This document shows positions 4,452-31,749 of a stretch of 33,135 nt of DNA, piece by piece. The notes under the pieces were generated by a model, which ran no database searches, was not told the origin of the DNA, and saw nothing but the letters and a program-made list of their open reading frames with translations. Made by a program: the position numbers and the translations under genes. Source of the DNA: Acidobacteriaceae bacterium (lineage in GTDB: Bacteria; Acidobacteriota; Terriglobia; Terriglobales; Acidobacteriaceae); contig PNAR01000223.1 of assembly GCA_003169715.1 (NCBI GenBank), positions 1 to 33,135 of the forward strand, read 5' to 3'. Each line of letters opens with the position of its first letter. Position 1 is the stretch's first letter.

Positions 4452-4988
4452 TCAAGGTGCCGCGCCGTTGACTGCGGCGGAAGGGCGCCCCGAAGCCTTG
4501 CGGAAACGCGGCGGCCCAGCGATCGCCAGCAATTCAGCGATGAAGCCGCTGGTTTTCTTCCGGTCGAGTTGTTCCAACGGCAACTTGAACAGCCGCTGTG
4601 CGATCCCATCGAGATCCTCGGCCGTGAACTTCTGCTCCTTCGCCACCTTCGCGATCAGCGTGTTTTGCTTCTCGGACCTGTGTGAGGCGTCGGTCGCGGA
4701 AACGCGGGCCGTTGGTGTACGGTGAGCGTTGCTTACGGCCCCGTTCTGAGCAGCCTTGCTGTCAACCAGCAAGCCGTATTTGGTAGGGTCCGGCAGAAAG
4801 CCGACTGCCTTCAGCTGTTCATCGACGCTGCTTTGCAGCAGTGCGTAAACGCGTTTGGCTTCCGTTTCGAGTCTCCTCAGGCTGCTAACCTCGGCAGAAA
4901 CACTAACCATAAAGGAGTGGGAGCTGAAGTTTGGAAGCGAGAGCTTTTTTGCGTACGAAGCGTTAATTTGGATAGACATGCCACGCAT
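4452..4988 (-). CDS. Hypothetical protein
   Basis: 178 aa ORF, same strand and just upstream of radC, coherent composition. Confidence 0.6.
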   Translation of the reverse strand: MRGMSIQINASYAKKLSLPNFSSHSFMVSVSAEVSSLRRLETEAKRVYALLQSSVDEQLKAVGFLPDPTKYGLLVDSKAAQNGAVSNAHRTPTARVSATDASHRSEKQNTLIAKVAKEQKFTAEDLDGIAQRLFKLPLEQLDRKKTSGFIAELLAIAGPPRFRKASGRPSAAVNGAAP

Positions 4989-6797: not shown

Positions 6798-7217
6798 GTG
6801 GCTATGTTAACGAACGAGCAGTGGAGAAAGGAAATTGTCGAGTGCCAATTTCCAAAGTTCAAAAGGAGAGTGCGCGACCAAGGCATTGCCACCTCGTGTA
6901 AGGCGGATTTTGCCGTTGATAAAAAAGGGGGAAGGGTGGGTCGTGTAACGGTAGAAGCTTGGGAGATAGGAGACACTACAGACAGCTTCGTGCTGTCGTT
7001 TTTGTACGGTAAAGCAGGGCAGGCAGGCATCCTCATGACCCGGTTCAGGAAGCAAGCGAGCGGCCCTCCCCGCCGGAGGAGGCTCTTGCCACCGTTTTCG
7101 GAAACACTCTCCAGAGAGGCGGCGGCCAAGGCATTTACGCTTTTCGCGGGGACGATCCTGGAGCGCTTTATGGCGAAAGCCGACCGGCTAAGGAAGAAAC
7201 GCCGTCCCCCGAGGTGA
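6798..7217 (+). CDS. Hypothetical protein
   Basis: 139 aa ORF with protein-like composition and a basic C-terminus. Confidence 0.5.
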   Translation: MAMLTNEQWRKEIVECQFPKFKRRVRDQGIATSCKADFAVDKKGGRVGRVTVEAWEIGDTTDSFVLSFLYGKAGQAGILMTRFRKQASGPPRRRRLLPPFSETLSREAAAKAFTLFAGTILERFMAKADRLRKKRRPPR

Positions 7218-7393
7218 CTGGAAGAGGCGACGGATCGAGTAGTTGATGGCCTCCGAGCCGTCGGTGGAAAACGCCGACGAGCGAGGGAGCCAACAGCAAC
7301 CCGTTGCCAGGGCGTCATTGTGCCCTGGCCCAGGCAAGGCTGCCCGGTTTTATATATATGTACCTTTAACATGAGTACTAGTTATCGTCTTGC

Positions 7394-7456
7394 GTAGATA
7401 ATATTCAAAACAGTGGGGCTCCTATATATAAGAAACACTATGTGATGAATCATTAT
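7394..7456 (+). repeat. 63-bp direct repeat, copy 1
   Basis: gtagataatattcaaaacagtggggctcctatatataagaaacactatgtgatgaatcattat; matches 7941-8003 with one mismatch. Confidence 0.97.
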
Positions 7457-7769
7457 ACCCCGGGGGGCGTCAACCGCGCCTGGAGCCACCTTTGCTTCGT
7501 CGTGCTACCGCATCCTCCGTATGAGTCGCGGTGAGGAAGCTTCAGTGAAAAATCTGCCCCGTAGATCTCCATCCAGCACTGAACCGTGATTACCGTTGTG
7601 ACTGGGGCCCCCCATGATTAGGTAATGGCGCATTGAAGTGTACCGGGTGCCCGTTACGCGAACAAATTCGCCGCGGGAGGGGTCGGCACATTCCTGCATT
7701 GAAGCAGAGTGGCCCGCGTCATGATGCAGATACCCGCTGACTGAGCCACTTCAGGAGCTGTAATGAGAA

Positions 7770-7796
7770 ATGCGACGCCCTGAATGGGCATCGCAT
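7770..7796. other. Hairpin: 11-bp stem (one mismatch), 5-nt loop
   Basis: atgcgacgccc-tgaat-gggcatcgcat. Confidence 0.7.
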
Positions 7797-7805
7797 GCAC
7801 TCTGA

Positions 7806-7854
7806 TTATCCACCGATGGAATTTCGTACCTCCGTGCAGTCCATCGGTGGATAA
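7806..7854. other. Perfect 15-bp inverted repeat with 19-nt loop
   Basis: ttatccaccgatgga (7806-7820) is the exact reverse complement of tccatcggtggataa (7840-7854). Confidence 0.9.
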
Positions 7855-7940
7855 CCAATGAATACCACTATACCTGCAGACGGGGCCCCGTTGGCACGAG
7901 GAAGGTAGCCTTAATTATTAATAATAGCTATAGATTCTAG

Positions 7941-8003
7941 GTAGATAACATTCAAAACAGTGGGGCTCCTATATATAAGAAACACTATGTGATGAATCAT
8001 TAT
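7941..8003 (+). repeat. 63-bp direct repeat, copy 2
   Basis: gtagataacattcaaaacagtggggctcctatatataagaaacactatgtgatgaatcattat; one mismatch to copy 1. Confidence 0.97.
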
Positions 8004-8110
8004 CTTTGTTAGTTTTAATGGGTTTGAGCGTTCCGACCGTGATCGGCTATCAATGGATAATTTCCGCGTTGGTCTCCGCTGGGGGATGATACGTAACCAC
8101 CCTCGAAACG

Positions 8111-8133
8111 AATAATGGCCTAAGGCCGTTATT
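8111..8133. terminator. Candidate terminator hairpin downstream of the 8147-9079 gene
   Basis: aataatggcc-taa-ggccgttatt, 10-bp stem with one G-T pair, A/T-rich arms on both sides. Confidence 0.5.
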
Positions 8134-8146
8134 GTTATCTTGCCCC

Positions 8147-9079
8147 TCAGCCGAGGCGATGCTTTTCGAGTGCCCATTCCCGAACTTCAGGCAGCAAAGG
8201 CAATAGTCGAATCAAGTGTTGCCACGATAGCGCGCGGAAACGAAAACGAGAGCAAGTATTCTTTGTTGCGACTGTTTGCCGTAGGAGAGCCGGCCAACCT
8301 GGCCAAGCACCAGTGTGACGAAAGTATGGGTTGTTAGCGTCAAATAATAGAACGAAGACCGCTCGACGATGTCGCCCGGCAAGTTGGCGTGCTGCTGCTG
8401 CTGTGCGAATTGCCTGGTAAGCAGTGCTAATCGGGCAGGGGAGAAAGGGTAGGCGTTCGCCAAACAATCCGAATACCTTTTGTGCTGTTTGCCAGTATTT
8501 GGGTCGCACGATGACCCGGTCAGGGCAAAAGCCACCGACGCCCGGATTGCCCTCTCTTTCTCGCGTACAAGAGCAAATGCCAAATCCCGCCTCCGACCAT
8601 TTGCATTCAACAGCCGCAAGGTAGTGACTTGTTTCGGCAACGAAATCCAACTGCGAGGCACGCGGTTGTTCATTTAGATCCGGTGGACTAAGTGTTTGCT
8701 CGAATGTGTAGCGCGTAGCTTCTTTCGCTTGGTGTGGCAGACGCAGCGCCTTCCAGAACCAGCGGAGACTTGGATCGCGGTCCGCGGCACAGCCGAGCAG
8801 CGCCAAAGCCAGCGACTGGCTTGAGCGCGCGGAACGTGCGTGGATGTGGGTGGACCTCGGCGGAAGCAATTGGCGCAAAGCCGCATAACCGTCCGGTAGC
8901 GCAGCGCTGAGTGAACGCGCGGAATAGGCATGTCTCGCACAGCGGAGATTCGAATGCCTCTCGTAGTAGGCCGAATAATGTTTTATCAGCAGTTTTTCAT
9001 ATTTCCGATAGGACGACCGGCATTCGGCGTTGATTAACGCGCTCGTCCAGGAATCGATCAACCTCGTTGGATTTGACAC
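8147..9079 (-). CDS. PD-(D/E)XK-like nuclease, resembling the PGN_0703 family
   Basis: FEQTLSPP...SQLDFVAETSHYLAAVECKWSEAGFGICSC: D-x(n)-ExK core followed by a Cys motif. Confidence 0.7.
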   Translation of the reverse strand: MSNPTRLIDSWTSALINAECRSSYRKYEKLLIKHYSAYYERHSNLRCARHAYSARSLSAALPDGYAALRQLLPPRSTHIHARSARSSQSLALALLGCAADRDPSLRWFWKALRLPHQAKEATRYTFEQTLSPPDLNEQPRASQLDFVAETSHYLAAVECKWSEAGFGICSCTREREGNPGVGGFCPDRVIVRPKYWQTAQKVFGLFGERLPFLPCPISTAYQAIRTAAAARQLAGRHRRAVFVLLFDANNPYFRHTGAWPGWPALLRQTVATKNTCSRFRFRALSWQHLIRLLPLLPEVREWALEKHRLG

Positions 9080-9174: not shown

Positions 9175-10032
9175 TTAATTGGTCTCGGTAGGTGTTCCCG
9201 GAACCTCACGTGCGTCCCGAGGTTCGCGAGATTGATCGGTTAGCGAAGCGGCTCCGTACGTGCGCGGATCAAAGCCAAATTGGATGTACATGTCCATGCT
9301 CTCAAGCGTAATATCGTCAGGCAAATGAAACGTGTCCGGGCGCGTATGCTCCGAGCATTCAGATGCAAACGCCAGGAAATGCAGGTCGGTCATCGTGCTA
9401 TTAAGAGGAAGTTCGTTCTCGATGTATTGCAAGACCGCCCTCTGGAAATGCCGGCGATATTGTCGGTTCTTCTGAAGGATCTTTCTATACCGCCAGCTAC
9501 CACTGACCTTTTCCGGTGCCTCGGTTTTGACCATCATGGTCATCAGCGCTGAGACCAATTGGGCATTGTTTGGCCTGGGGCGCAGCCGTTCATAATGACG
9601 GTAAACGGCGCCAAAGTTCTCGAACAAACATTCAAAGAGGTCCAAGACCGTTGAGTACTCGCAAGGCGGGTAAACCTTTGGAATGTTGGCAAGGGAATTC
9701 AATGCGCAAGCGTACTTGGCCTGGCACCAGAACCATTCGCCGTCCATGTCCCAAAGCTGCTGCAACTGATCTTCCGTGGCATCAAGTCCACGGGAAGCTA
9801 AAAAGCGCAGAAATCCCTCCTTCGAATCTAGCTGTATCTCGGCTGTCGAAATGATCTGGATGATCTGCTTTTCGGGATATGGTCGGAACGGGTCCTGTTC
9901 GTCGGCGACGATAATTCGGCCATCCGCGAGGAACGGGTAGTAAGGCGGCCGTACTACCCGCACCTGCGGAAATGCTATTGCGAGCAAACCGAGGTCGCTG
10001 CCACCGAAGCGATATTGAGCGATAACTGGCAT
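9175..10032 (-). CDS. Hypothetical protein of the ATPase/excisionase module
   Basis: 285 aa ORF directly downstream of the ATPase gene on the same strand. Confidence 0.7.
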   Translation of the reverse strand: MPVIAQYRFGGSDLGLLAIAFPQVRVVRPPYYPFLADGRIIVADEQDPFRPYPEKQIIQIISTAEIQLDSKEGFLRFLASRGLDATEDQLQQLWDMDGEWFWCQAKYACALNSLANIPKVYPPCEYSTVLDLFECLFENFGAVYRHYERLRPRPNNAQLVSALMTMMVKTEAPEKVSGSWRYRKILQKNRQYRRHFQRAVLQYIENELPLNSTMTDLHFLAFASECSEHTRPDTFHLPDDITLESMDMYIQFGFDPRTYGAASLTDQSREPRDAREVPGTPTETN

Positions 10033-10043
10033 AGCAATGAATG

Positions 10044-11498
10044 TTAGGCTTGGGTATCGTCTTCCTTCGCAAAGCCCAGGTATTCTCGCAAACTCGACGC
10101 GGAGCCGTTGCTCGGCGCATCATTATCGAGCAGTCGACCGAGTTTGTAGCCCTTGAACAAGTGCACCAAAATCCAGTCAGAGGTGCGCGCCCAATCACGA
10201 AAGAAGTGCCGGTGCTCGATCGTTTGAAGACTGCCTTGAGCGATCCATTCCCGCAGCACCGCATGGACACACCCGAGATAGTACGGCTGGCGTGCCCGAA
10301 CATGCGCGATCAAATCACCCTCGCCATACGATCCGAAATTGTATCCGGCCCGCTGCTTTCGTAAATTGATTGTGACAGTTCGATTCCAGAGATCCTGCGT
10401 CGTTTCGAAGCCATTGCTGGTTGCAAGAACGATGAAACGGGAAGGATCGACATCGACCGCGCTGCGATGGGGAGTCCGGGCGAGGAACGACTCATCTGCG
10501 GTCAGAAAACACTCGATATGCGTCGAGTTCAGGCGACCCCTGAGATTATCAAGGACCAAGAACGGATGGCCCTCGAATAATCGCGCGTTGCAATCCTCGT
10601 CGAACCCACCAACTCCACCATCACGCTGGGCGACAGGCTTCGGATTTTCGCCATGGATGGCCGTCACCAACCTCGTCAAGTATCCCTTTCCAGTCCCACT
10701 TTGATCAGCAGCAACGAGAAACATCGGAACCCGATTTTCACCAACTAGCTTGCCGAAGACTAAGGCAGGGGTCAGAATCATAGCAACCGCGCGCGCAAGA
10801 TCGCTCGGGGTAGCACACTTGAACTCGCGGAGCAGCCACAGAAGCTTTTCTTTGGCTTCAACGGGTGGCACATCAATCGGATCTTTGCCTTTCGTGACGA
10901 ACAGGCCTCCGAATACGGGATGGTAACCCCGTCCAAGGAGAGCGGCGTTCCGATTGCCTGTCGCGATCAACACTGGAGAGTTCACCAGCGAGCAGATTGG
11001 AGGCAAGTACCGTTTCGCCTCAAGCGTCTCGAGGAGTCTCTCGGCGGCACTCTTTGAGCAGCGGCTCGGACGAATGATATGCCGGCCCTTATTGTCCACC
11101 CCGTGTTTTACGATCTTTCCTATCATCTCCACTCGGCTGCAGAATGCCGCCGGGGAGACGACCTTGAGATCGTATTCCTCGCGCCGCTTTAGGCACAGCT
11201 CGACGACGAGACCGCCGTAAACGAACATAGTAAGCAGCTTTGCAAGAGCCCGAAAAATTCGGTAGGCCGCTTTGTGAACAGGAAAAGAATCCGAAGGCAC
11301 GAAGTAATATTTTTCGTTTTCGTGCTCAACCGGTAGAGCTGACGCTGCACCTGCAACTATCGGCGGTGAGTGGACGGACTCGTCGTCGGGTTTAGCAGCG
11401 TCGATTGGACGGCTTTGCGGAGAAGCGGCTCTTTCTGAGCCAGAGTTTTGGCCGTTCTCGTCAGCGCCGTCAGAGGGAGAGGAGATTATGGATGACAT
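10044..11498 (-). CDS. AAA+/SF3-like helicase-type ATPase, probable mobile-element replication protein
   Basis: Walker A-like FLVAADQSGTGKGYLTR, Walker B-like HPFLVLDNL, sensor-like FIVLATSNG. Confidence 0.75.
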   Translation of the reverse strand: MSSIISSPSDGADENGQNSGSERAASPQSRPIDAAKPDDESVHSPPIVAGAASALPVEHENEKYYFVPSDSFPVHKAAYRIFRALAKLLTMFVYGGLVVELCLKRREEYDLKVVSPAAFCSRVEMIGKIVKHGVDNKGRHIIRPSRCSKSAAERLLETLEAKRYLPPICSLVNSPVLIATGNRNAALLGRGYHPVFGGLFVTKGKDPIDVPPVEAKEKLLWLLREFKCATPSDLARAVAMILTPALVFGKLVGENRVPMFLVAADQSGTGKGYLTRLVTAIHGENPKPVAQRDGGVGGFDEDCNARLFEGHPFLVLDNLRGRLNSTHIECFLTADESFLARTPHRSAVDVDPSRFIVLATSNGFETTQDLWNRTVTINLRKQRAGYNFGSYGEGDLIAHVRARQPYYLGCVHAVLREWIAQGSLQTIEHRHFFRDWARTSDWILVHLFKGYKLGRLLDNDAPSNGSASSLREYLGFAKEDDTQA

Positions 11499-11502
11499 GA
11501 TC

Positions 11503-11772
11503 TTATGCCTCCTTTCTTGAGAGCGACGCCAGGTATTCGCGCACCGAGTCGGTTGACACGAGTCGAATGCCTCGTATGTTTCCTCGACGACAGAGACTGA
11601 CCGACTTGATCAACCGAAGTTGAAGCAGTTCGTAGAGTTTCGACCGCTTGATGCCGAAACGGCGGGTAATGTCTGGAATGCGCTCCCATTCCGGTGACGG
11701 GTTGATGGCTTGAGGGTTCCGCGGGATCTCTTGAACAGGTCCCGCCCAACTGGATATATGCTTTAATTGCAT
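11503..11772 (-). CDS. Excisionase/AlpA-like helix-turn-helix protein
   Basis: IPDITRRFGIKRSKLYELLQLRLIKSVSLCRRGNIRGIRLVSTDSVREYLASL, typical MerR/excisionase HTH-wing layout. Confidence 0.75.
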   Translation of the reverse strand: MQLKHISSWAGPVQEIPRNPQAINPSPEWERIPDITRRFGIKRSKLYELLQLRLIKSVSLCRRGNIRGIRLVSTDSVREYLASLSRKEA

Positions 11773-12333: not shown

Positions 12334-12889
12334 CCAGTTTTATCGGCCGGCAACATGCGCTTCACAAATGCTGGGCTGTGGACGACGATAAAATCGCCCG
12401 CGAATGCTGGATATTTGACCGCTCGACGAATTTGGCGTCCAAGTCGTAGATCGCGATCTTGATCGCCGGAACATGGGAGTTTTTTGCGAAAGCTGGGCGG
12501 AAGGCACCCGTTAGACTGGGTGGCAGCAAACGCCTTCACATTTGACACGGCGGCGCCGTCTCGGCCGGCACTTTCCGAGTGAATTTCTTCACAGGGCCGC
12601 AACCTTCGGCATCGCTACGCCAGGGCTCGAACCCCATCAAGCTCGGGTGCTCCGCCTGTAGATACCGTTGCTCGCGGGTGCGGTGCCCGGCTCTTCTCTA
12701 GCCGCCCAAGAGGTAGAGTGGCCGAGCGCGGTTTGGAGCCTTGGATGAAGAAACCGGAGATTTCCCCAAAATCATAGATTTTTGACAACTTCGCCCAGCC
12801 GTTGCCGTAGTTATTGATAAAGACGCTTCATACGAAGCAGAGCCAGACTCAATTCCGTAAAAGCCGTTTAAAGCAATAGGAGCATATCC

Positions 12890-13903: not shown

Positions 13904-15016
13904 ATGTCAAAGAATATCGTTCTCTGCTGTGACGGAACGAACAATCAGTTCGCCGGCTATCACACCAACGTTATCCGGACGTACAAGGTGGCACGCCGCC
14001 ATCCCGGACAGGTCACTTACTACCACCCGGGAGTCGGCACCATGCCGGAACCGTGGAACACGACAAATTTCGCCAAGCGCATGGACATGTTGAAAGGCCT
14101 GGTCTACGGCAATGGTTTTCTCGACAACATTTCCGACGCCTACCGGTTTCTTGTCGCAAACTACGAACCGGGCGACCAGGTCTTTCTCTTCGGCTTCAGC
14201 CGTGGCGCATATACTGCCCGCGCAGTCGCGGCAGTGCTTCACTCTATCGGACTTCTGCATCTAGCCACAGATGGCCTGTTGCCTTATGCACTCCGGTACT
14301 GGCGGAAGGATTATGGTGCGCAAAACCTAGGAAGAGCGGTCTGCGCCGAATTCAAGGCGACCCTCGCGCAACCGTGTCCGGTTCACTTTATCGGTGTATG
14401 GGACACGGTGAGTTCCGTGGGTTATTTTAATAATTTCCGCACTTTCCCACACACGGCGGAAAATCCCGAGGTAACACACGTGCGCCACGCCGTCTCGATC
14501 GACGAGCGCCGCTCATCTTTCCGACAAAATCTGATGTTGCCGATGCCTCCGAATCAGGATGTCAAAAATGTTTATTTCGCGGGCGTGCATTCGGATGTTG
14601 GTGGTGGTTATCCGCCGGAAGAGTCTGGCTTAGCGAAAATCCCGTTCGAGTGGATGATGCGGGAGGCGAGCACTTGTGGCCTGGACATCGACCCCGTCGC
14701 CTTCAGTCGAGAGCTTACCGGCACTGGAGCCTCGCCTAATCCTTCTGCGCCCCTCCATAAGTCACTTCACGGTTTCTGGTGGCTTGGGGAGTGCCTTCCG
14801 ATGAGGCGTTACTCTTTTGCGGATCACAAGAAGCATTTGCATTGGTTCATCGGTGCATTCAACCAGCCGCGCTATCCGGAGCGCACGGCTAAGGAATCTT
14901 ATGTCTTTCTTCATCAATCCGTTCTCGACCGCAGAAACCAATGCCCTGATTACCGTCCAAGAAACCTTCCAGCCGACGAGCAGAGCATCCGGGCAATGTT
15001 CAAAATCGAGAACTAA
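13904..15016 (+). CDS. DUF2235 family alpha/beta hydrolase (Tle1-like phospholipase fold)
   Basis: KNIVLCCDGTNNQF, FLFGFSRGAYTARAVA (GxSxG), VYFAGVHSDVGGGYP. Confidence 0.95.
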   Translation: MSKNIVLCCDGTNNQFAGYHTNVIRTYKVARRHPGQVTYYHPGVGTMPEPWNTTNFAKRMDMLKGLVYGNGFLDNISDAYRFLVANYEPGDQVFLFGFSRGAYTARAVAAVLHSIGLLHLATDGLLPYALRYWRKDYGAQNLGRAVCAEFKATLAQPCPVHFIGVWDTVSSVGYFNNFRTFPHTAENPEVTHVRHAVSIDERRSSFRQNLMLPMPPNQDVKNVYFAGVHSDVGGGYPPEESGLAKIPFEWMMREASTCGLDIDPVAFSRELTGTGASPNPSAPLHKSLHGFWWLGECLPMRRYSFADHKKHLHWFIGAFNQPRYPERTAKESYVFLHQSVLDRRNQCPDYRPRNLPADEQSIRAMFKIEN

Positions 15017-22913: not shown

Positions 22914-23549
22914 TCAGGTTTTTGGCTCAAAAATGGGTTCGAGCAACGTCAGAAACGTTGAAATGAATAAGGCAAGAAACGCGGCAAGGACGCCTCCCAC
23001 TTCTCCGGTGAGATAGGGCGTCCCTGGAACCGCTAGAGCCCACACCCCGAAGGCTGTGGTTGAAGCGAACAATTTCCACCACGGCCATTGTACAAAAGAT
23101 GGCAAAGGGGGCAGCTCGGCACTACGTCGCTTGCCAATGAAAATAATCAGAAACAAGAGTGGGGTCAGGAGCACGAATGCCCAATAAGCCCAGTACGACG
23201 CTTTAGGCGGGAGTTTGCCTTGTAGAGCGGCCATGGCAGAACAAGCCGCTATGTAAAGAGTGATGGCTTCTGTCGGAATATAACGCGCGAGAGAGTCGAG
23301 TGCATTCGACCCTTTGGTCGGCTCAACTGGCGTTTCGGCCGCCAAAGGCAGCAAGCTCTCATTAAGCAGATTTAGCTTCGTTGATGGAATGTCAAGTTTA
23401 GCGAGCATCGAATTGGCGTACTCGGAAACTCGCGGTTTCATACGGTTCGCAATAAAAGTGGTCTCTCGATGACTAATCTCTTGGTCTGCTAGTGAACTAA
23501 GACTCATTTTCGTTCCTTGTGTTTTGCAAACGACTGCGCATGATGACAA
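22914..23549 (-). CDS. Membrane protein; start uncertain, MSLSSLADQ is a plausible internal start
   Basis: Four hydrophobic segments between AITLYIAACSAMAALQG and LAAFLALFISTFLTLLEPIF. Confidence 0.75.
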   Translation of the reverse strand: MSSCAVVCKTQGTKMSLSSLADQEISHRETTFIANRMKPRVSEYANSMLAKLDIPSTKLNLLNESLLPLAAETPVEPTKGSNALDSLARYIPTEAITLYIAACSAMAALQGKLPPKASYWAYWAFVLLTPLLFLIIFIGKRRSAELPPLPSFVQWPWWKLFASTTAFGVWALAVPGTPYLTGEVGGVLAAFLALFISTFLTLLEPIFEPKT

Positions 23550-23564
23550 GAACTAGCCATTTGC

Positions 23565-23621
23565 GTCTAGTGGGAGAATTCCGACGCTCAATTGAACATA
23601 AGGCAACCAGAACTTAGGCCG
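23565..23621. repeat. 57-bp direct repeat, copy 1 (upstream of 22914-23549)
   Basis: gtctagtgggagaattccgacgctcaattgaacataaggcaacc... ; first 44 bp match 25784-25827 with two mismatches, and similarity resumes at taggccg without indels. Confidence 0.95.
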
Positions 23622-23630
23622 AAGCAAAGC

Positions 23631-25604
23631 CTACCGCTTCTTCTTTCCCTTCTTGGAGGGGCTTTTGGCCACTAGCTTTATTGCTGCCTTCTTTTTCGCA
23701 CCCGGCCGCTCTTTCTTCGTGGTTCTCTTCTTCACAGGCGGCGTGGGCGAATCTTTTGATGAGACTGAACGTATCCTGTGCGACGACGGAGCGGGTGGCG
23801 ATACCCTCGCTACGGCTCCGCCGGCCGCCGCTAACACGTTGGCCGGCGCCGCCGTCGCCTGTCCCAGCCAGAATTTAGTCTCGGCCAATTCGTCACCGGT
23901 CAGATAGCTGGTTTGCCACGCGTCGTTATCCACCAAACCATGCCACACTTTTGGCTCTTGCCGGTGCGCCTCCACGTAACTGTTCCAGCGATAGGTTTGA
24001 TAGATGGCAATGATATTGATTGCATATGCCGCCGCCAGAGGGCCGTTGCCTTCAATGATGACCAGGTTGTCGTCATTCTCGGTCGATGCCTTGTAGCCGA
24101 GGTTGTGCGATCCGGTCATCAGCACGGGATGTGAACCGAACGGGTCGATCACAATCACCTTGCTGTGGATGTTGACCATGCTCGCGCCGAGCAGTTCCTG
24201 CTCCCATGTATGGAATTGCGACTTGATGTTATGCGGCACCATCACGCTTTGGCCGAGCGGTATGTGCTGCGCGTCTCCGCCGCCGTTAATCAAAGTCACC
24301 GGCGCGGGAGATGTGGGGTCCTGCAGCGGGTTGGACTGCTTAGCTCCGGCAACTGGAGCAACCGCGGGAGTGAGACCGGCGATGGTTTGGTTCACCACGC
24401 CGCGCATGTAGAGGTTGGAGTTGCAATTGGCATCCGCCGGGTTGTGGCGCTCCAAAATGTTCTGCAGCAACGTCCACTTGGTTGGATCCTGCTGGAATAT
24501 GCCCGGGTTAAAGAATAGAAACAGAATGCCGTCCTGCGCTGCGTCGATCAGCTTACGCGCGTAAGCCAAGTCTTGCGCCGCGGAGGTCGCCGCGAACCAT
24601 GGCGTGACCTTGCAGCCATCCACTTTATAACTCTTCGCGGTGGAATTACCCAGAATCAGCGACGACGGGTAAGCGTTGCCAGCGGCTTTTAGCCGGTTCC
24701 ACGCATCCAGAAAGTCCTGCGCGACGCCGGCATCTTCAATGATCAGTCCGTTGTTAGCTTGCGTGCAGAGACCGGACGAAGTCCAGTTCGTGCTGCCCGT
24801 GAGTACTTGTTGCGGCTTTCCGGTGGAGTCGCAGAAGACCACGAACTTGTTGTGGGCGAAGTGCGAGCCCGTTACCAGGCGGTCGATCACCGTCACTTTG
24901 GTCTTCAACGCCGCGCGCACGATCGCGTTCTCGTCGTTGGTTGGGGGTTTGAAGGCGCCGTTGGCCAGAATTAGGTTACAATTCTTGCCGAACGCTTCCA
25001 GCGCCGGAATCAACTCAAGATCGTTCAATTCGTAGAGGGCGGCGAAAATCTCGCCCTTGCTCTCCAGGGTCGCGGCCAGCAGGCCCAGAATCTGCGGCCG
25101 CAACAGCCCGCTGAGTGCGTTGCGGATGGGCGTGCCAGGCTTCTGCACCAACGGCGTAATGGCGGCCTTGGTGGGCGTGTTGTTGAGGGCCTTGGAGACC
25201 CACTGAGCGGCCACGATGCCCTTGTTGAAGTAGGCGGAAAGATGCGGCGTGCGCTGGCCCGTGATGGGCATGGATGGTGTGACCGAGCTGGCGTTCTTGG
25301 TGTCGAGCGATAGCTTGGATTGATTGGGTCCGACCACCGGTATCACCGAGTATTGAACGGTATCGCCCGGTTTGACCGAATAGTCCCACCAGAGATAACG
25401 CTGAACCGGGAAACTGCACGGGTTTGCCGGGGCGAGTTTATCCGTGTCGGAGAAGCCCACGGCACCGTGAAGGTAAGTATCATGACCATTGGAGGTGCGC
25501 TTGATCGCAAACCCGCGGCAGTCGAGGACGGGTTTTCCATCGGTTGGCAACCACACAAGGCAAGTGTGGTCGCCGTTGTCGTAAACCTTCAATTCGAGGC
25601 TCAT
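23631..25604 (-). CDS. Phospholipase D-like protein with two HKD motifs and Lys-rich C-terminal tail
   Basis: HFAHNKFVVFCDSTGKPQQVLTGSTNWTS and NIHSKVIVIDPFGSHPVLMTGSHNLGYKA. MSLELKVYDNGDH at 25604 is the likely start rather than 25646, because its ATG overlaps the stop of the upstream mini-ORF (ATGA). Confidence 0.92.
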   Translation of the reverse strand: MSLELKVYDNGDHTCLVWLPTDGKPVLDCRGFAIKRTSNGHDTYLHGAVGFSDTDKLAPANPCSFPVQRYLWWDYSVKPGDTVQYSVIPVVGPNQSKLSLDTKNASSVTPSMPITGQRTPHLSAYFNKGIVAAQWVSKALNNTPTKAAITPLVQKPGTPIRNALSGLLRPQILGLLAATLESKGEIFAALYELNDLELIPALEAFGKNCNLILANGAFKPPTNDENAIVRAALKTKVTVIDRLVTGSHFAHNKFVVFCDSTGKPQQVLTGSTNWTSSGLCTQANNGLIIEDAGVAQDFLDAWNRLKAAGNAYPSSLILGNSTAKSYKVDGCKVTPWFAATSAAQDLAYARKLIDAAQDGILFLFFNPGIFQQDPTKWTLLQNILERHNPADANCNSNLYMRGVVNQTIAGLTPAVAPVAGAKQSNPLQDPTSPAPVTLINGGGDAQHIPLGQSVMVPHNIKSQFHTWEQELLGASMVNIHSKVIVIDPFGSHPVLMTGSHNLGYKASTENDDNLVIIEGNGPLAAAYAINIIAIYQTYRWNSYVEAHRQEPKVWHGLVDNDAWQTSYLTGDELAETKFWLGQATAAPANVLAAAGGAVARVSPPAPSSHRIRSVSSKDSPTPPVKKRTTKKERPGAKKKAAIKLVAKSPSKKGKKKR

Positions 25605-25723
25605 GGATTCTCCTTGCGATACTCGTCGCCAATGAGCGGGTCCCACGGAACTTTCTTAGCTTCAACGCTCGCAAAAGCGGTCAAGAGCGTCGCAGTTATA
25701 ATGATGAAAGGCTTAGTTTTCAT
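25601..25723 (-). CDS. 40-aa signal-peptide-like protein, translationally coupled to the PLD gene
   Basis: MKTKPFIIITATLLTAFASVEAKKVPWDPLIGDEYRKENP*, stop overlapping the PLD start codon. Confidence 0.6.
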   Translation of the reverse strand: MKTKPFIIITATLLTAFASVEAKKVPWDPLIGDEYRKENP

Positions 25724-25783
25724 ATAATGGCTCGCATTCTTAGGTAACGAGTTGCGCCGATCATGAGGAAACACGACTTTTGT

Positions 25784-25840
25784 GTCTAGTGGGAGAATTC
25801 CGACACTCAATTGAACATAAGACAACCTGCCTCGTAGGCC
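25784..25840. repeat. 57-bp direct repeat, copy 2 (upstream of the mini-ORF/PLD unit)
   Basis: gtctagtgggagaattccgacactcaattgaacataagacaacc...taggccg. Confidence 0.95.
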
Positions 25841-26234
25841 GGGATTGGGTTTCACGGAAAGTGTTTGCCAACTTCCCAGAGCGTATCTCGTAGTAACTTG
25901 TTGGGGAAAAGCCTCATGAATTCAAAAACGACAAAGCTCTGGAATTTTGTTATTTCGTCGTTACGGCGTGATCAAGTACTGTGCCTTTTGAGACTGGGAC
26001 TGGAAGCGGATAACGATGGTGATGTGGCTTTGGACCTCGAAAGCGTGGAGTGAAGCGGCAAGCAACGGCCCCCCCGTGCTCTGGTGGACCAGGACTTCGG
26101 ATCACCTGCTATCTTCGGATCCAATGAGGACATCCGAAACGTCTACGCCAGTGTCCGCTCGGACGGAGAAATGAAAGCTTTTAAAGAAATTTGCCAACTT
26201 CTACCGGCGGATCCCGTAATCATTTTCTAGAGCC

Positions 26235-30339: not shown

Positions 30340-31500
30340 TCACATTGGTTCCATCGTAATGTCCGGTAAAGAGGCCGCTGCTTTGCGAAGGGCCTCAGCG
30401 CCGACATGCGTGTAATGCTGGCTCATTGCTTCTGAGTCGTGACCGACTAATTCCATCACGACGGCAGCAGGGATTCCCGCCTCCTTCATGAGAGTGACTG
30501 CTGTATGCCGAAGACAATGGAAGCTCAGTCCGCCGGTGCTGCTGCCGCGCCCGCGGCCGTTCTTCCCGTCGACATTCGTTCGATGCTTCTTTTTCTCACG
30601 AAGCCCCGCTTCCGCGAGGAGATCAGCGAATTGGTTCGAGAGATGGCCAGATTTTCCTTGGGCACTGACGATGTCGAAAGCTCCTGGATGCAGAGGAGCG
30701 GCAGGATCATCCGAACTAGGCATAGCTTCGATATGTCGTTGCAGTGGGGCTGCGATCGGCAGGATTAGCGTTTTTCGAGTTTTGCGCGTTATCAATCGGA
30801 TCTCGCCGTGCTCTAGATCGATGTTCTGCCACGTGAGCGCCGCGATGTCGCCGAGACGCTGGCCTGTGTAGAGACCAAACATCACCATTGAGCGCCAGTT
30901 GGGATCGGCGACACCCAACACAGCCTTTATTTCACCGACCGTGAAAGGGCGTCGGGCGGCTGCGTCGCCCTTCCGGATGGTGTCCACAAACTCCGCGGGA
31001 TCGTCGGCGACTAGAGCGTCGCGTTTCGCGGCGCGAAACAACATGCGTAGAAATTTGACCTCGTGGTTCACTGTCTTCGGAGCGAATCGCTTAGCCTCCA
31101 GATTGCGAAACTTGGTGATGTGATCTCGCGTGATTTCGGTCAGGTCTTCGTCCGCCACCGTCCCGAGAAACCCGAGAAACTTGTCCGAAGCATTGCGATA
31201 ATGGGCGAGGGTGGTTTCTGCGACTTCCGGGGTTTTCCGGTCGATCCAATCGTTGAAAAACTGGCGAACAGACATTTGCGAGACTTGCTCACCGGTTATC
31301 TCCTGATGAAGGTGCGTGATTACGCGGCGCACTTGTAAAGCCGTTCGTTTCCGGCACGCGGCAGATTCAAACTCGTCGGCGATTTTCTGTGCCTTCTTCC
31401 GATTAGACGTGGCTGTTGACCGCTTCAGGCGGCGCCCATTGCGGTCGTTGAAACATGCGACCCAAAACTTTGATGTGGGACGTTTAGTGAGACTTGCCAC
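30340..31500 (-). CDS. Site-specific tyrosine recombinase (island integrase), probable GTG start at 31500
   Basis: TGQRLGDIAALTWQNID, SFHCLRHTAVTLM, LVGHDSEAMSQHYTHV. The track's longer N-terminus reads antisense through the tRNA-like 3' end and is rejected. Confidence 0.92.
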   Translation of the reverse strand: MASLTKRPTSKFWVACFNDRNGRRLKRSTATSNRKKAQKIADEFESAACRKRTALQVRRVITHLHQEITGEQVSQMSVRQFFNDWIDRKTPEVAETTLAHYRNASDKFLGFLGTVADEDLTEITRDHITKFRNLEAKRFAPKTVNHEVKFLRMLFRAAKRDALVADDPAEFVDTIRKGDAAARRPFTVGEIKAVLGVADPNWRSMVMFGLYTGQRLGDIAALTWQNIDLEHGEIRLITRKTRKTLILPIAAPLQRHIEAMPSSDDPAAPLHPGAFDIVSAQGKSGHLSNQFADLLAEAGLREKKKHRTNVDGKNGRGRGSSTGGLSFHCLRHTAVTLMKEAGIPAAVVMELVGHDSEAMSQHYTHVGAEALRKAAASLPDITMEPM

Positions 31501-31606
31501 ATAGGAACGATAGTAGGAACATCCGGGGGAGTCCAGACTAATCCGACAAGGTCCGTTTCCCTCGTGGGCGGACGTGCGCGAACAAGGGGGAACCGGCCTT
31601 AGCAAA

Positions 31607-31636
31607 ACAGGGGTTCGACTCCCCTCGCCTCCACCA
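31607..31636 (+). ncRNA. ssrA: 3' end of a tRNA-like gene, probably tmRNA (ssrA) fragment / attachment site
   Basis: T-arm aggggTTCGACTcccct followed by cgcctccaCCA; no complete tRNA or tmRNA body precedes it. Confidence 0.65.
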
Positions 31637-31749
31637 CAACGCACTTTGCTCCGAAACCGAGTCCGTGCGACGCACGGCGAGGTTAGTTTCAGATAGATTT
31701 CCCCAGGGAGATTTCCAAGAAACCCCAACTCAGGCGTCGCGAAATTGGA

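Follow-up and report, generated by a model that had tools for sequence, protein, structure and literature searches.

A non-coding iteron region of the Streptomyces plasmid pWTY27 holds direct repeats, AT-rich parts and a long inverted repeat of ~105 bp to which RepA binds (PMC3583192). In the phage satellite PLE, replication needs a non-coding region whose direct repeats are semi-palindromic and serve as the origin iteron (PMC7145576), and att direct repeats bound integrative elements that carry primase or helicase genes (PMC5862659). Here, we report a single 929-bp gap (positions 7218-8146) in a 33,135-nucleotide stretch of a metagenome-derived Acidobacteriaceae contig (PNAR01000223.1, assembly GCA_003169715.1; this whole stretch is called the window below), which we tentatively read as a putative replication origin or control region of a plasmid-like integrative element. 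Of the readings considered, the likeliest is an origin-like region of a known kind that is unusual in its pair of 63-bp repeats.

The likeness to pWTY27 lies in a distantly related Rep (27.5% over 46%) and in a non-coding region 3' of the rep genes (repAB) that contains AT-rich parts, direct repeats and a long inverted repeat; in pWTY27 the iteron region lies on the 3' side of repA, and the Rep of the window matches the gene at this position. However, the pWTY27 region has many iterons of 7-8 bp whereas the present one has a pair of 63-bp repeats plus a small number of degenerate motifs, and here two genes stand between Rep and the region, whose role as an origin is putative. With PLE the locus shares semi-palindromic direct repeats in a non-coding region and the setting of a mobile element that encodes its own initiator, but the RepA of PLE belongs to the RepA_N family, a relation that was not seen here, and the repeats differ in length and number. 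Integron attC sites are also imperfectly palindromic, ~60 bp long and directly oriented, with one strand folding better and a cassette between them; in contrast, inspection of the 63-mer ends found neither RYYYAAC nor GTTRRRY boxes, there is no array here, and the search of the genome (76% complete) for an integron integrase gave 25 weak matches, none over the cut-off. The att-bounded elements resemble the locus in having a replication gene in an integrated element and direct repeats that arise from tyrosine or serine recombinases, but their repeats enclose the whole element and not, as here, 484 non-coding bp inside it.

The region is directly 3' of a nuclease gene and closes a run of genes in the order HTH, plasmid-type Rep, 285 aa and nuclease, all on the - strand, with a PadR-like regulator divergent from the run. 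The small HTH-like gene (11503-11772) is followed by Rep (10044-11498), a P-loop protein with distant similarity to plasmid replication proteins: it is 25-28% identical to plasmid replication-type proteins of Legionella, Streptomyces and Methylobacterium and weakly matches a PHROG named DNA primase. Its AlphaFold model has a mean pLDDT of 38 and was left out of the analysis. Next come the 285-aa gene (9175-10032) and the gene of a PD-(D/E)XK-type nuclease of 310 aa (8147-9079; Pfam REase-ARP), in which D145 and E158-x-K160 are kept in five of five aligned homologues; we read these residues as the PD-(D/E)XK motif. The structural model of the nuclease (mean pLDDT 69, pTM 0.74) found no significant match in the PDB. 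On the other side of the gap, a 137-aa ORF on the + strand (6804-7217) converges with the nuclease gene; its relatives were searched for and none was found. Further along lies a 178-aa gene (4452-4988, - strand).

The repeats and the insert between them sit together in this gap, which extends between the stop codons of the two convergent genes. The two 63-bp copies (7394-7456 and 7941-8003, both + strand) were already recognized in the first-pass annotation, which had also described a one-mismatch, 547-bp-spaced pair; their coordinates are exact, 62 of 63 positions are identical, the sole mismatch being GATAAC in copy 2 for GATAAT in copy 1, and the start-to-start distance is 547 bp. The annotation had overlooked that the gap is a single convergent one of 929 bp, that hairpins lie beyond the repeats and that the 63-mer is itself palindromic. 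Each copy is an imperfect palindrome across almost its full length with TATATA at its centre; please note that this is a weak quasi-palindrome, its self-complementarity being equalled by 104 of 5000 shuffles. The - strand of the 63-mer folds better than the + strand. The 42-bp core occurs only twice in the window, where shuffles expect 0, and the DNA flanking the two copies is fully diverged. Outside the repeats, strong hairpins at about 7241-7340, behind the 137-aa ORF, are possibly its terminator, and a terminator-like hairpin (8111-8133) lies immediately past the nuclease stop codon.

The 484-bp insert (7457-7940) is non-coding and rich in hairpins. As had been stated before, no convincing ORF lies between the repeats: stop codons occur in all six frames of the insert and a six-frame Pfam scan gave no credible match. 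The palindromes named earlier at 7770-7796, 7806-7854 and 7881-7890 are all present, and so is the complementary pair agtggc (7708-7713) and gccact (7745-7750). The first is a hairpin with a stem of 11 bp and a loop of 5 nt, terminator-like on the - strand; the third is the perfect palindrome CGGGGCCCCG; the second extends to a long inverted repeat at 7803-7857 with 18-bp arms (17 of 18 paired) and a 19-nt loop. A stem scan of the 33-kb window (at least 11 pairs, at most one mismatch, loop up to 25) found two places only, 7803-7857 among them, and its stem is among the longest hairpin stems of the window. Measured against dinucleotide shuffles, folding of the 610-nt unit is in excess with z of -5.1 on the + and -5.2 on the - strand (20 shuffles per strand), and that of the insert alone with z of -3.4 and -4.2 on the two strands (100 shuffles each). 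No inverted repeat joins the ends of the insert, i.e., MITE-type termini were not found. Two other origins of the insert were considered and rejected. As a decayed gene, it gave short matches near 7461-7517 in relatives, none longer than about 55 nt, with a best E-value of 9e-4 per genome over 399 genomes; in our reading they resemble bits of common protein motifs (SHLGFVVLG-like, VNRVWSHL-like), and we treated them as chance matches against multi-copy genes. As an old tandem duplication of the left flank, it gave a local alignment score that 10 of 300 shuffles also attained, with a single 15-bp match.

Across the window, AT content is highest in the 150 bp at 7911-8060 (GC 0.327), which take in repeat copy 2, and a second AT-rich block (7311-7460, GC 0.413 per 150 bp) takes in copy 1; GC near both repeats goes down to 0.31 per 100 bp, with most of the insert at 0.53-0.6. 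When the flanks were joined in silico via one 63-mer, a single dip to a GC of 0.32 resulted, similar to that of the related loci described below. From composition, the 547-bp unit thus looks like an addition to, or a doubling inside, an AT-rich module whose version in the relatives is simple. Among short motifs, GATAAY has its density peak within the window at the gap (8 sites per 930 bp against a mean of 1.3), a motif that was chosen post hoc; an unbiased k-mer test of the gap was negative. K-mers common to the gap and the upstream region of the HTH gene were at chance level.

The DNA itself seems to be confined to one place. In its own MAG (4.37 Mb, 530 contigs, 75.8% complete) the repeats and insert have one locus. 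The comparison with relatives of the same phylum that the first-pass annotation had suggested was made at the DNA level, and nothing meaningful was found for the 63-mer or the insert in 60 near relatives or 398 other genomes of the class, two sets that overlap. Repeats and insert were also absent from 72,556 plasmid and 50,697 phage records, and no exact 26-mer was found in the GTDB representatives.

The neighbouring genes could be followed further. The nuclease, 137-aa and 178-aa genes were not found in the window's near relatives, where Rep matches are distant at most; the element is therefore an accessory one. A nuclease scan of a genome collection led to one MAG contig titled Verrucomicrobia (L061), and a search among relatives of that genome to three further loci (L079, L080 and L081); nuclease identity in the related gene sets of other MAGs is 42-53%. 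In L079, HTH (56% identical), Rep (40%), a 290-aa gene (41%), other genes, the nuclease (52%), an AT-rich gap, other genes and the 178-aa gene (52%) follow one another in this order. In L061, identities are 33% for Rep, 49% for the nuclease and 34% for the 178-aa gene. L080 combines HTH and nuclease with a different gene at the position of Rep, and the nuclease of L081 stands amid glutamine synthetase, DNA polymerase III alpha and ClpB-like genes. HTH, Rep, 285/290 aa, nuclease (REase-ARP) and 178 aa apparently make up an undescribed family of plasmid-like elements, judged from gene content and order. Variable genes separate these backbone genes: the space from the nuclease to the 178-aa gene is taken up in L061 by a 407-aa gene, in L079 by HTH (possibly transposase), AraC, glyoxalase, CAAX-protease-like and kelch genes, and in the window by the repeat region together with the 137-aa ORF and a deiminase-like gene. 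Tyrosine integrase genes are present in the window, with many more in the genome. The gene at 30340-31728 of the window is related, in two pieces of 36-49%, to a broken tyrosine integrase upstream of the HTH gene in L080 (2534-3033), a hint at integration of the element family by a tyrosine recombinase.

Intergenic DNA is generally AT-rich. In the window, in L079 and in L080, the 150 bp with the lowest GC of the locus fall in the non-coding DNA that directly follows the 3' end of the nuclease gene, and this junction ranks third lowest in L061. Assuming about 20 gaps per locus, three of three loci at the same gap would be expected by chance about once in 8000, by a post hoc estimate. An AT-rich stretch behind the nuclease gene is a conserved positional feature. 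Since other genes lie between Rep and nuclease in L079 and L061, the stretch goes with the nuclease and not with Rep. The sequence, repeats and hairpin of the window gap are not common to L079 or L080, and pairwise alignments among the gaps of the three elements are weak, being equalled by 8 to 55 of 300 shuffles in nuclease orientation.

The gap has the anatomy described above, a Rep-type gene lies in the same run, and relatives have an AT-rich stretch at the same place. On the basis of this gene run, the AT-rich position in relatives and the analogy to pWTY27 RepA, we tentatively read the region as an origin or control region. In this model, Rep, perhaps together with host DnaA, would bind at GATAAY motifs scattered over the gap and at the inverted repeat (7803-7857), melting would take place in the AT-rich blocks, and the 63-bp quasi-palindromes would serve as duplicated AT-rich binding modules flanking the hairpin core. 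The AT-rich core of the control region would have been split or doubled by the 547-bp unit. Binding by Rep, melting, replication from the gap and the role of the 63-mer are all inferred here, by analogy. Several features are those expected of an origin. The gene run points at the region and is kept as a set in L079 and partly in L061 and L080; the Rep-type gene offers a replicon its own initiator, by distant similarity only; and an unwinding element could be provided by DNA with the lowest GC of the window, as in two related loci. For tandem short iterons, there is the cluster of GATAAY / TCGGTGGATAAY in the gap, with the post hoc choice of motif and the negative unbiased test already mentioned. 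As for DnaA boxes, TCGGTGGATAAY occurs in each arm of the inverted repeat and matches the box at 8 of 9 positions, with DnaA-box-like 9-mers at chance across the window (5 against 4.6 expected). Against an origin, two 63-bp copies placed 547 bp apart are not typical iterons, and the repeats and hairpin do not recur in L079 or L080. If true, this would locate the control region for a family of plasmid-like integrative elements from poorly sampled bacteria, and replication could be tested directly on a short DNA segment.

The long and nearly identical direct repeats are better explained by a non-autonomous cassette of 547 bp (484 bp plus one 63-bp site) that a site-specific recombinase placed in a quasi-palindromic target within the AT-rich DNA behind the nuclease gene than by an origin; the repeats would then be two att-like sites, of which excision would leave one, and the 63-mer would be a ready recombination substrate. 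Several observations agree with this: the quasi-palindromic nature of the repeats, an insert with a GC of 0.55-0.6 in an AT-rich setting whose joined flanks give one dip, a gene slot next to it that differs between related elements, and the tyrosine integrase genes of the window and genome. However, there is a single locus, no natural empty site was found in the own genome or its relatives (the related elements are too diverged to serve as such), no integrase adjoins, and the insert ends have neither inverted termini nor boxes of integron type. Because neither a further copy nor a natural empty site nor a recombinase that matches was found, we regard the cassette as unlikely and rank it below an origin. 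The earlier suggestion of "a non-autonomous mobile cassette, or a recombination target" stands as a rival reading: the AT-rich position, the variable adjoining slot and the single dip speak for it, and a second copy, an empty site and terminal features of a known class were not found. That the region is part of a plasmid-like element with a Rep gene was out of sight for the first-pass annotation. That the 63-bp quasi-palindromes are sites of an undescribed cassette system, integron-like with unrelated sites, which loads small units into AT-rich DNA behind the nuclease gene of this element family, seems to us highly improbable.

It is rather improbable that an accident of repair or replication simply copied 63 bp of AT-rich intergenic DNA that is now functionless, with hairpins that are terminators of the convergent genes plus chance palindromes. 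Occurrence in the own genome only, absence from related elements and terminator-like hairpins behind both convergent genes are consistent with such an accident, but the long inverted repeat and the AT-rich position are unusual, and copies that are still 62/63 identical between fully diverged flanks do not fit unless the event was recent. Transcription of the insert into a structured non-coding RNA, with one promoter per repeat, had also been proposed before, and we now consider it very doubtful. Folding is indeed stronger than in shuffles, but the excess is equal on both strands, as from palindromic DNA, and is therefore no argument for RNA in particular; Rfam gave no match at gathering (one chance match, E 0.67, lies outside the cassette), promoter-like matches are at chance (1 found, 1.5 expected), and no homologue is available for covariation. 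Finally, the contig comes from a fragmented, incomplete draft genome, as the figures given above indicate, and an assembly artefact could be suspected; we judge this hardly credible, because the copies differ by one base, paired reads could reach across the 547-bp period, and both sides of the gap carry genes of a single element family, in the order seen in L079.

Other features of the window deserve a brief description. Two 58-bp repeats (23551-23608 and 25770-25827), 88% identical and 2219 bp apart, are each found a short distance upstream of a gene on the - strand (22914-23549 and 23631-25646), and their hairpin stems co-vary (GCGTC...GACGC against GTGTC...GACAC); they appear to be a shared promoter or a conserved structured 5' element. 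A gene at 13904-15016 has a Tle1-like phospholipase domain (Pfam E 2e-74) and is followed, up to 17702, by two large ORFs with no Pfam match, possibly an effector with its partner genes. A 36-bp family (TTTGCCAACTTC...) occupies three intergenic sites (12781-12816, 25864-25899 and 26190-26225) that are 67-72% alike.
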